Assembly: GCA_016938655.1 (NCBI GenBank)
Contig: JAFGUG010000045.1
Location: 1-64,000, forward strand
Origin: Thiotrichales bacterium
GTDB taxonomy: Bacteria > Pseudomonadota > Gammaproteobacteria > Thiomicrospirales > Thiomicrospiraceae
Direction: 5' to 3'
DNA length: 64,000 nucleotides
The translations under genes were made by a program, and so were the position numbers. Every line of letters starts with the position of its first letter. The stretch's first letter is position 1. Shown here in pieces: positions 36,370-40,152 of this stretch. The notes below the pieces were generated by a model, which saw only the letters and a program-made list of their open reading frames with translations, had not been told where the DNA came from and searched no databases.

Positions 36370-37731
36370 ATGACAGATCAAAACGTACAAAAGGTTGCTC
36401 TTCAAACTGAAGAAAGTCGCAACCAGGGTCGTCGTGCCTTTCTAAAGGGTAGCGCGGCTGTAGCAGGGGGCGTTCTATTTACTAAAGCGGCTTCTGCTGC
36501 TGAAGGAACGGGTTTCGACCCTAAGAAAGCAGTAGCACCTTATGCAGGTAAGACTGAAATTACAGATGTATTGCAAGATCAAGCGTCTCGTAAAACATTA
36601 GGTTTCGGTGTTCGTAAATACCCATACGGTATGCCTTCTCCATATGAGAAGGAAGTTCAGCGTCGTACTTTGGAATGGTTAACACCTGACTCAATGGCGT
36701 CTATCACAATGACTCCATTACAGAGCTTACACGGAATTATCACGCCGAACGGTCTTCACTTTGAACGTTTCCACGGTGGTGTACCAACAATCAACCCTGA
36801 TGATCACCGTTTGGTTATCCACGGTTTAGTTGAGCGTCCATTGATCTTCACTATGGATGATCTTAAGCGATTCCCATCAGTGTCACGTATCCATTTCGTT
36901 GAGTGTCCTGCTAACGGTGCACTTGAGTGGAAAGGTGTTCAGTTGAACTCGGTTCAGTGGACTCACGGTATGATGTCTTGTGTTGAGTACACAGGTGTCC
37001 GTTTATCTGATCTACTTAAAGAAGCGGGTATCAAGCCTGAAGGTAAGTGGATTATTCCTGAAGGTGCGGATGCAGCCGGTATGGCTCGTTCTTTACCGCT
37101 TGAAATCGCTATGGATGACTGTTTCATTGCTTACGCACAGAACGGTGAAGCGCTTCGTCGTGAACAAGGTTACCCTATTCGTTTAGTTGTGCCTGGCTGT
37201 GAAGCGAACATGTGGGTTAAATACCTACGTCGTATCATGGTTCACGATGTGCCAATGCAGCACCGTGAAGAGACGTCTAAGTACACAGAATTAATGCCTG
37301 ACGGAACAGCTCAGCGTTTCTCATGGTACATGGAAGCAAACTCAGTAATTACTTACCCATCACCTGATTTTAAAATGCAGGGACCAGGTAAATACTTCAT
37401 TCGTGGTTTAGCATGGTCTGGCCGTGGAAAAGTAGCGCACGTTGATGTTTCACTTGACGGTGGTAAGAACTGGAAAGAAGCTCACTTTACGTCAGCTGTG
37501 CTTGATAAGGCGTGGACTCGTTTCGAGCTTGAATGGGATTGGGATGGTTCAGAAACGTTCTTAATGAGCCGTGTTACCGATGAAACTGGTTATGTTCAAC
37601 CTCCTATGCCGCAAATGCGTAACCTAGAAGGTACCAACAACGTTTACCACCGTACTGCTATGGTTACATGGAGAGTACATCCTTGGGAAGACGGTAAAAA
37701 TGGAGGCATGATTGAAAATGTTCAGTACTAA
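36370..37731 (+). CDS. soxC: SoxC sulfite/sulfane dehydrogenase, molybdopterin subunit
   Basis: 453 aa. A twin-arginine signal (RRAFLKGSAAVAGGVLFTKAASA, residues ~20-45) marks export of the folded, cofactor-loaded protein. The sulfite-oxidase fold has the molybdenum-ligand Cys179 in HFVECPANGALEW, cofactor-binding segments SLHGIITPNGLHFERFHGG, and a C-terminal dimerisation domain (VHPWEDGKNGG). With SoxD it oxidises the sulfane sulfur bound to SoxYZ in the periplasm. Codon use looks biased towards preferred codons (high expression). It overlaps soxD, and the Moco biosynthesis cluster follows within 1.4 kb. Confidence 0.95.
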   Translation: MTDQNVQKVALQTEESRNQGRRAFLKGSAAVAGGVLFTKAASAAEGTGFDPKKAVAPYAGKTEITDVLQDQASRKTLGFGVRKYPYGMPSPYEKEVQRRTLEWLTPDSMASITMTPLQSLHGIITPNGLHFERFHGGVPTINPDDHRLVIHGLVERPLIFTMDDLKRFPSVSRIHFVECPANGALEWKGVQLNSVQWTHGMMSCVEYTGVRLSDLLKEAGIKPEGKWIIPEGADAAGMARSLPLEIAMDDCFIAYAQNGEALRREQGYPIRLVVPGCEANMWVKYLRRIMVHDVPMQHREETSKYTELMPDGTAQRFSWYMEANSVITYPSPDFKMQGPGKYFIRGLAWSGRGKVAHVDVSLDGGKNWKEAHFTSAVLDKAWTRFELEWDWDGSETFLMSRVTDETGYVQPPMPQMRNLEGTNNVYHRTAMVTWRVHPWEDGKNGGMIENVQY

Positions 37732-38791
37732 AAAAACGTTTGTTGCAGCAGCGATTGCAACATTATTTGCCGGTTCAGCAGCAGCAATGAGCGGAAGCTC
37801 TGATGGTGCATCTGCAACTGGTGGAGATAAAATTGATGGTAAATACGCAGCAAACTTTGAGCAAATTATCAAAGATGCAGACGGTAAATACTTAGATAGA
37901 GCGGTAATTGAAGCAATTTTAGGTGCAGATGCGACTCACGGTCGTGACGGCTTAATGGGTAAACTTGACCCAGCAAACCCTTACTCTTTCGAAGTTGAAG
38001 ATAGCATCGATGGTGGTAACCATGGTAATGCTCAGTGTAAAGTGCCTCTAGCTTTCACTGAAGTTCATGACAACGTTAAAGCAAACTATACACACGATAG
38101 CAATTTCGTTGCACGTGGGTTTGGTACACCGATCTCTGAAGATTCTTTAAAGATTTGGAATATTGTTGTTGATGGTGACGGTAAAGGTCTTCCTGATCCT
38201 TCAGTTGGTATGACTGTAGAAGAAGGTGCTAAGGTTTACGTACAATTCTGTGGTATGTGTCATGGTGAGTTCGGTGAAGGTGCTAAGGGGTATTTACCAC
38301 TAGCGGTAGATGAAAACCTAGTGACTTCTGACTTCAATGCGCCAGCACCTCAGAAAGCTGTAGGTAACTACTGGCCGTATGCGGTTACCTTGTTTGACTA
38401 TATTCGTCGTACAATGCCTTTCTGGACTCCAAACGCACCATTCATTGGTGACGCTGGTTACATGGGTATGACAGGTTATATCCTTCAATCTAACTACATT
38501 CCTGTAGATGATGAAGGTAACGAACTAGAAGACGATACTTTCTTCAACTCTGAAGTACTTATGAAAATGAATAAGTACATGAAGAACCAAGGTAACTTCT
38601 TCTGTGACCACCGTCCAGTTATTCATAACGCTCGTTGTATGACGAACTGTGATGACTCATTGGTTGGTGATGGTAAAGGTAACATCAATAACTTCAAGCA
38701 AGCACGCTTGTTGCCTGATGGAACCCCTCAGTACAACGTTCCACAACGTTTACATGAAGATAAGCCAGGTGTAGGTCACTCAGGAATGTAA
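37718..38791 (+). CDS. soxD: SoxD c-type cytochrome subunit
   Basis: 357 aa from ATG 37718. TTG 37712 is the track's alternative; GGAGG at 37702-37706 could serve either. The start lies inside the last codons of soxC, so translation is coupled. The signal peptide is TFVAAAIATLFAGSAAA. One CxxCH heme motif is present, FCGMCHGEFGEG (Cys178, Cys181, His182), with Met-rich candidates for the sixth ligand. A second site where a heme is found in diheme SoxD reads RCMTNCDDS with no CxxCH, so this is probably a monoheme form. It takes electrons from SoxC. A 126-nt hairpin begins right after its stop codon. Confidence 0.92.
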   Translation: MFSTKKTFVAAAIATLFAGSAAAMSGSSDGASATGGDKIDGKYAANFEQIIKDADGKYLDRAVIEAILGADATHGRDGLMGKLDPANPYSFEVEDSIDGGNHGNAQCKVPLAFTEVHDNVKANYTHDSNFVARGFGTPISEDSLKIWNIVVDGDGKGLPDPSVGMTVEEGAKVYVQFCGMCHGEFGEGAKGYLPLAVDENLVTSDFNAPAPQKAVGNYWPYAVTLFDYIRRTMPFWTPNAPFIGDAGYMGMTGYILQSNYIPVDDEGNELEDDTFFNSEVLMKMNKYMKNQGNFFCDHRPVIHNARCMTNCDDSLVGDGKGNINNFKQARLLPDGTPQYNVPQRLHEDKPGVGHSGM

Positions 38792-38917
38792 TTTTAAGCG
38801 GCTGAAAGGTCGCTTAGCACACCAATCTCGGCGTTAGGAAATAGACGTTTACCGATGTAAACTCTGATTTCCTGCCTTGATCTTGGCACACTAAGCAAAC
38901 TTTCAACCTGCTTAAAA
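38792..38917. repeat. 126-nt imperfect inverted repeat directly after soxD
   Basis: TTTTAAGC (38792) pairs with GCTTAAAA (38910). Moving inward, further pairs are TGAAAG/CTTTCA, GCTTAG/CTAAGC, CCAA/TTGG, GGC/GCC, AGGAAAT/ATTTCCT, AGA/TCT and GTTTAC/GTAAAC around a CGAT loop. I count about 45 base pairs. It begins at the first base after the soxD stop codon and is followed 10 nt later by the operon terminator. It could be an RNA 3' structure or a palindromic (ERIC/MITE-like) DNA insert. Confidence 0.7.
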
Positions 38918-38927
38918 AGCATTTTAC

Positions 38928-38964
38928 AAACCCGCTATTCCTTTTGGAGTAGCGGGTTTTTTTG
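38928..38964 (+). terminator. Terminator of the soxCD transcript
   Basis: AAACCCGCTATTC-CTTTTG-GAGTAGCGGGTTT, a 13-bp stem with one wobble, followed by TTTTG. Confidence 0.9.
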
Positions 38965-39055
38965 TGTCTGTCATTCATGGTTTCTTCATGCTTTAACGAT
39001 CGTAATTACTTGTTCTAGTTAAAAATTATTTTATTCTAATTCATTGTAAATATTA

Positions 39056-39084
39056 TTGAACTCTTATGAGTTTGTCTGTAAAAT
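39056..39084 (+). promoter_or_regulatory. Candidate sigma-70 promoter of the moa operon
   Basis: TTGAAC, a 17-nt spacer and TAAAAT, giving a leader of about 60 nt before moaA. That leader (GGTTGGCTATAGCG...CATAACC) can form a small stem. It is too short to hold the known Moco riboswitch. Confidence 0.5.
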
Positions 39085-39150
39085 GCGTTATTCCCGGTTG
39101 GCTATAGCGCCTGAAGTTCGCACAGCTCCATAACCAAGAGACAAGCGTTT

Positions 39151-40152
39151 ATGAAAACAGAATTGATTGACCCATTTAATCGAAAAATTGAATACATCCG
39201 AGTTTCGGTCACGGACTTATGTAACTATCGTTGTGGCTACTGCATGCCTGAGCAAGGGGTTCATCCAGAAGGTAATCATAAAGAGTATCTTTCGTATGAT
39301 GAATTAGCGCGTATCATCAAAGCGTTTGTTAAGTTAGGTGTTGCAAAGGTACGTTTAACCGGTGGTGAGCCGTTGGTGCGTAAAAATTTATCGCATTTAG
39401 TCTCTGAAATTAGTACCTATGAAGGGCTTGAAGATATTGCCTTATCAACCAATGCTCATCATTTAGAACGTGAAGCACAAGCCTTAAAAACAGCGGGCAT
39501 GACCCGTTGTAATATCAGTATTGACTCCTTAAAACCTGAACGCTTTAAAAATATAACGCGTGGCGGAGATTTAGTGAAAGTGTTGGCGGGGGTTGATAAG
39601 GCTCTAGAAGTTGGAATGACACCTGTAAAGTTCAATATGGTGGTAATGAAAGGCACCAATGACGATGAAATTGAAGCCATGGTTGATTACGGGTTAGAAA
39701 AGGGCGTTGAAGTGCGCTTTATTGAAACCATGCCGATTGGCCCAGCAGGGGTGAGCATGATGAATCAGCATTATCCAGCAAGTAAAATTTTAGCCAGAGT
39801 CAAAAAACACGTCGGTGCCGATTTAATTCCGTCAGCGGGTAAGACACATGATGGCCCTGCTCGTAATTTTATTATTGCCGGTACCAATACTCGTATAGGC
39901 GTTATTTCTGCAGTATCTGAGCACTTTTGCGAAACCTGTAACCGTGTACGTTTAACTGCACGTGGTGTATTAGCACTGTGTTTAGGGCAGGAAGATTCGG
40001 TTGATCTACGCACGCCTTTACGTGATGGCATTACAGATGAAGGTTTAGAGCAATTGATTAAAGATGCCATGTTAAAGAAACCTGAAAAACATTTCTTTAA
40101 CGAGAATGTGCATAACATTGAATTTAGACAAATGGTTCAGTTAGGCGGATAA
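39151..40152 (+). CDS. moaA: GTP 3',8-cyclase (molybdopterin step 1, radical SAM)
   Basis: 333 aa. The radical-SAM cluster motif is CNYRCGYC in VTDLCNYRCGYCMPEQG. A second [4Fe-4S] cluster is held by CETCNRVRLTARGVLALCLG near the C-terminus. RLTGGEPLVRKNL is the SAM-contact segment. It starts Moco synthesis from GTP. First gene of moaA-moaD-moaE-moeA-moaC. The usual Gly-Gly tail is at residues 332-333 (LGG). Confidence 0.97.
   Translation: MKTELIDPFNRKIEYIRVSVTDLCNYRCGYCMPEQGVHPEGNHKEYLSYDELARIIKAFVKLGVAKVRLTGGEPLVRKNLSHLVSEISTYEGLEDIALSTNAHHLEREAQALKTAGMTRCNISIDSLKPERFKNITRGGDLVKVLAGVDKALEVGMTPVKFNMVVMKGTNDDEIEAMVDYGLEKGVEVRFIETMPIGPAGVSMMNQHYPASKILARVKKHVGADLIPSAGKTHDGPARNFIIAGTNTRIGVISAVSEHFCETCNRVRLTARGVLALCLGQEDSVDLRTPLRDGITDEGLEQLIKDAMLKKPEKHFFNENVHNIEFRQMVQLGG

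Follow-up and report, generated by a model that had tools for sequence, protein, structure and literature searches.

An ERIC-like palindromic element behind soxD, from a dispersed family that in its genus lies mostly in sense behind genes, is a candidate 3'-untranslated-region hairpin

ERIC sequences (also IRU or RU-1) are imperfect palindromes of ~127 bp whose hosts, according to a 2024 review, are the Enterobacteriaceae and Vibrionaceae (PMC10969869). In Yersinia, ERIC copies in 3' regions alter the stability of the upstream mRNA in an orientation-dependent manner (PMC2229807, PMC10969869), and a model of ribosome-dependent cleavage by RNase E has been reported for them (PMC2229807). NEMIS hairpins affect mRNA as well (PMC2229807). 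The REP/BIME elements of E. coli are intercistronic palindromes proposed to stabilize the upstream mRNA (PMC3733652).

We analyzed a palindrome located behind soxD in a stretch of 64,000 nucleotides (hereafter, the window). A first-pass annotation had described a 126-nt imperfect hairpin at the soxD stop codon (positions 38792 to 38917), followed by the operon terminator. Both structures are present in the sequence. The region from 38780 to 38970, terminator included, folds at -76.6 kcal/mol, compared with -41.2 ± 4.1 for 200 dinucleotide shuffles, none of which was as low (z of -8.6), and the hairpin without the terminator forms ~47 pairs at -47.6 kcal/mol. The repeat unit goes a little beyond the annotated limits, extending over ~134 nt from 38789 to ~38922. 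The features are as follows, R1 designating a covariance model of the element core for which we used six dispersed relatives in addition to nine soxD copies.

36370..37731, forward strand: soxC, sulfite dehydrogenase SoxC (TIGR04555, 602 bits).
37712..38791, forward strand: soxD, c-type cytochrome subunit (Pfam cytochrome c domains; tblastn to relatives), named from its position behind soxC.
38789..38791, forward strand: soxD stop codon TAA, its TA being the presumed insertion target (sequence).
38789..38922, forward strand: ERIC-like palindromic element, full extent (fold; orthologous sites with and without the element; alignment of 11 soxD copies).
38822..38886, forward strand: conserved core, GCGTT ... 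tip ... GCCTTGATCTT (R1, cmsearch 74.8 bits; own-genome search).
38843..38866, forward strand: tip, the soxD copy's version of the ERIC tip, GACGTTTAC-CGAT-GTAAACTC (alignment of the family; E. coli ERIC).
38928..38964, forward strand: separate intrinsic terminator AACCCGCTATTCC-TTTT-GGAGTAGCGGGTT with a T run, stem at ~38928-38959 (fold).
39151..40152, forward strand: moaA, the next gene downstream (TIGR02666).

Comparison with relatives set the 5' end of the element at the TA within the stop codon. The 3' end, near 38922, is degenerate, with GCAT where relatives have ...GTTA, and the terminal TA, which is kept in congeners (e.g., G021, G009, and G023), has been lost. The draft genome containing the window (G000, 7.7% contamination) is probably a mixture of two relatives; it also contains a second soxD, 77% identical and without the hairpin (G000:C41:15912-16985, locus L078). 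Gene content suggests that the genus of the window consists of Thiomicrorhabdus-like sulfur oxidizers.

We then compared the element with one E. coli ERIC sequence. Like ERIC, the family consists of intergenic imperfect palindromes of ~120 to 130 bp with TA at their ends (at the 5' end alone in the soxD copy), and its consensus carries the ERIC core GTCACTTAC-n4-GTAAGCTC at the tip, with GCGTT and GCCTT flanks in the same order. R1 scored 25.4 bits on the E. coli ERIC tip CCCCAGTCACTTACTTATGTAAGCTCCTGGGG, the best unrelated stretch in the 64 kb reaching 9.7 bits. Where this family has CTGCGTT and YGCCTTGA, E. coli ERIC has GCTGCGTT upstream and GCCGCCTT downstream of the tip; the tip of the soxD copy itself (GACGTTTAC...GTAAACTC) has diverged from that of ERIC. 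The Rfam model V_AS5 (RF02818) hits E. coli ERIC at an E value of 9e-8, below its gathering score, and gave no match to the elements of relatives (E≤0.5) or to the window region (E≤5); no Rfam family reached its gathering score for the element. Unlike those of ERIC, the copies occur outside the Enterobacteriaceae and Vibrionaceae (PMC10969869), their outer arms and inner-stem spacing are different, and in this genus they show a strict sense, stop-codon placement. The first-pass annotation had recognized an ERIC-like size and shape, which we confirm, but had denied a likeness in sequence, which the conserved core does display. We conclude that the soxD element is ERIC-like and likely shares common descent with ERIC. 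Its family takes ERIC-like sequences far outside the host groups that the review lists (PMC10969869). REP/BIME elements, although also intercistronic, are 20- to 40-bp units of another sequence and not TA-inserting palindromes of such size, and NEMIS/Correia and RUP elements, TA-ended MITE-type palindromes compared here by description, have other hosts.

Searches with R1 established that the element belongs to a family of dispersed, TA-bounded palindromes of roughly 120 to 130 bp. The draft genome of the window had at least 20 copies at an E value of <1e-3, nearly all intergenic, and each of the 32 genomes from the same genus contained the element. At the level of the order, 43 of the 63 sampled genomes and 6 of the 7 genera were positive, and an even sample of the class yielded 22 of 369 genomes with copies at an E value of <1e-5; within the class, no fewer than 12 further families had related elements. 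Several of the class-sampled genomes carry the element as a young MITE with near-identical copies (consensus GTAACTACTCAGCTCACCCCTGAAATCCGCCATTTCTGCGTTRAAAAATGGTCATTTACACNTGTAAACTCACATTTTTTGCCTTGAACTGACGAATTTCAGGGGCAATCTGAGCAGTTAC), and counts of its terminal inverted repeat (TIR), TAACTRCTCAG, imply ~260 copies in G272 and ~115 in G045. A few longer copies in G045, of ~167 and 217 bp (L180, L184, and L192), contain another small palindromic insert inside the element. A plasmid collection gave no match to the element. A riboswitch or small RNA (sRNA) specific to soxD was rejected, because copies follow many unrelated genes. The first-pass annotation had suggested searching the genome and its relatives for further copies and soxD 3' regions for covariation, and would have counted the absence of both against its reading; many copies were found in both places, and covariation was found as well (see below).

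The soxD locus itself is polymorphic for the element, which occupies 14 of 31 orthologous 3' ends. The other 17 sites, most of which run directly into a terminator, lack it, so the element is dispensable there, and on a weakly resolved SoxD tree its presence is patchy, with 8 changes. A clean pair of filled and empty sites was provided by a sister copy: G011 carries a 119-bp element just behind a gene with a conserved neighborhood, and the site is empty in G001, G028, and G022. The small mobile palindrome, one of the options raised in the first-pass annotation, is supported by the many copies and by this pair, and the best reading of the element is an ERIC-type miniature palindromic mobile element (MITE). 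Copies would insert at TA dinucleotides, at soxD the TA of the stop codon, and would be mobilized in trans by a transposase. The sampled flanks of unpaired TIRs in G272 and G045 revealed no autonomous partner that shares these ends, and two long-spaced TAACTRCTCAG TIR pairs, whose open reading frames (ORFs) were inspected, were not recognized as transposases.

We then looked into the position of copies relative to genes, using simple ORF calls on the best-scoring copies fetched from the genus, those of G029 being treated separately. The nearest upstream gene was on the same strand for 107 of the 113 copies, and 70 copies started at its stop codon (56 TAA, 11 TAG, and 3 TGA), 29 of which were then followed by a terminator-like hairpin. 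Most remaining sense copies were later members of tandem arrays or lay behind a terminator. As orthologous copies are not independent, we also give the placement collapsed by upstream gene family, which was 29 versus 2 (p = 5e-7). By the same method, copies from other families had no stop bias (6/44 stop anchored) and were in sense in 22 cases versus 18 not (40 classifiable). G029, a genome with numerous similar copies, was intermediate, with 11/20 stop anchored and 13/20 in sense. Since these young copies are already biased toward stop codons, insertion targeting could account for some of the bias.

The copies recur behind the same genes. They followed orthologues of a given upstream gene in up to 9 fetched genomes; besides soxD, these genes include dnaK and atpC, each followed by a copy in 8, ilvC, ileS, and rlmH in 5 each, and ubiE, gapA, purH, and nrdA in 4 each; at these recurrent loci, nine upstream proteins and one downstream protein (pgk) were checked against NCBIfam. 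Several copies are intercistronic, namely, those of dnaK-dnaJ, gapA-pgk, ileS-lspA, and a cbbQ-cbbO-like pair (downstream genes identified by NCBIfam for pgk and by eye for the others). At atpC the element is situated after a terminator, and behind ilvC the hairpin and terminator form a unit that occurs as many as four times in a row. The ilvC unit measures 194 bp, comprising one ERIC-like hairpin and one intrinsic terminator, and stands in tandem at L229 (1656-2470, G021) and in G000, G014, G015, and G030.

Could these patterns arise from a palindrome that simply targets TA in stop codons, survives where it is harmless, and has no role in soxCD expression? The sense orientation would then stem from the way in which the element transposes, or from the removal of antisense copies by selection. 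Such neutrality would account for the filled and empty sites, the patchy presence at soxD, the stop bias of the young G029 copies, and the very high copy numbers in other genomes. However, in many species the element stands behind the same genes, its pairing preserved, hosts of other taxonomic families carry the same elements without the stop bias and with a much weaker orientation bias, and the tandem hairpin-plus-terminator arrays persist at ilvC. We therefore regard a purely neutral element as rather unlikely, while acknowledging it as the most serious competitor among the readings that we weighed.

A function at the level of DNA was also considered. REP/BIME elements serve as DNA sites for gyrase or IHF, and the strong palindrome could likewise be a protein-binding or cruciform site instead of an RNA structure; an inversion of the hairpin tip described below shows that a DNA hairpin was involved in replication errors. 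Yet a DNA site would have no reason to stay in sense at stop codons, and the conservation of asymmetric bulges is in keeping with a strand-specific RNA. We find this explanation very improbable, the sense orientation at the stop codon pointing to the RNA.

The placement points to the explanation that we favor and hold to be probable, in which an ERIC-type MITE has been kept as a hairpin in the 3' UTR, where it would modulate how the mRNA is processed or decays. The genus retains copies almost only in sense and directly behind genes, and each copy would therefore place a long hairpin after a stop codon, ahead of the terminator or of the following cistron. Once transcribed, this hairpin would most probably act on the mRNA, by blocking 3'-to-5' decay of the upstream message or by setting a ribosome-dependent cleavage site, and upstream and downstream cistrons would then be expressed at different levels. 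As the stop codon lies at the base of the hairpin, a ribosome that terminates there would melt the first pairs, consistent with the model reported for Yersinia ERIC, in which cleavage by RNase E depends on the ribosome (PMC2229807). The patchy soxD presence and the location of the atpC element after a terminator count against a retained hairpin. The first-pass annotation had proposed stabilization of the soxCD mRNA; the sense-strand, stop-codon placement lends this option indirect support, the sequence being compatible with a destabilizing as well as a stabilizing net effect on the message.

We then analyzed how the hairpin changes between species. Among the soxD copies, 11 of the 14 core pairs had changed on both sides, which is the covariation sought in the soxD 3' regions. 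Between G014 and G009, 36 of 138 columns differ; 8 pairs have changed on both sides and are still paired, and 3 to 6 are broken. Changes in the stem between species are thus largely compensatory. RNAalifold, run on a full-length MAFFT alignment, recovered the inner stem alone, as the outer arms are not alignable at the sequence level. Between the sister species G013 and G031 (L068 and L061), the 38-nt tip of the soxD element is exactly inverted, and the 98 flanking bases show three further differences. The pair neatly illustrates how an RNA hairpin can evolve by template switching. Template switching can make and maintain RNA hairpins (PMC8794818), and compensatory change alone is no proof of selection, since hairpin-templated replication can yield the same result (PMC8794818).

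The conserved letters, being confined to the bulges and the tip, also bear on the idea that the 3' hairpin is processed into a stable sRNA acting in trans. A long stable stem followed by a terminator is also seen in sRNAs derived from 3' UTRs, and Rfam lists V_AS5, the model that hits ERIC, as an antisense RNA gene. However, the arms vary from copy to copy and from species to species, which leaves no shared seed, and we judge such an sRNA to be very improbable.

Returning to the retained 3'-UTR hairpin, we tentatively extend it to the whole genus of sulfur oxidizers, where the ERIC-derived palindrome may have been domesticated as a standard 3'-UTR or intercistronic RNA module, in sense at TAA stops of core genes (dnaK-dnaJ, gapA-pgk, ileS-lspA, ilvC, and soxCD). 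The stems might be kept paired partly by hairpin-templated replication, and the bulges might be preserved for the sake of a nuclease or RNA-binding partner that is itself conserved. A genus with near-universal sense, stop-codon placement, frequently behind the same housekeeping genes across species, offers a natural experiment on how mobile palindromes turn into 3' elements of mRNAs.

Two further features of the window were noted. The region upstream of moaA (~39050 to 39115) contains a promoter-like TTGAATTCTAAT...TGTAAAAT followed by an inverted repeat, CGTTATTCCC-n-GGCTATAACG, which we take to resemble a ModE operator; it is present in most congeners and had no match in Rfam. The palindrome CAGGCCTG has 36 sites in the window (e.g., 4798, 21051, 30414, and 52051), compared with 0.55 expected, and CCAGGCCTGG was also found behind soxD terminators in relatives. 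It might be of the highly iterated kind or serve as an uptake or structural signal.
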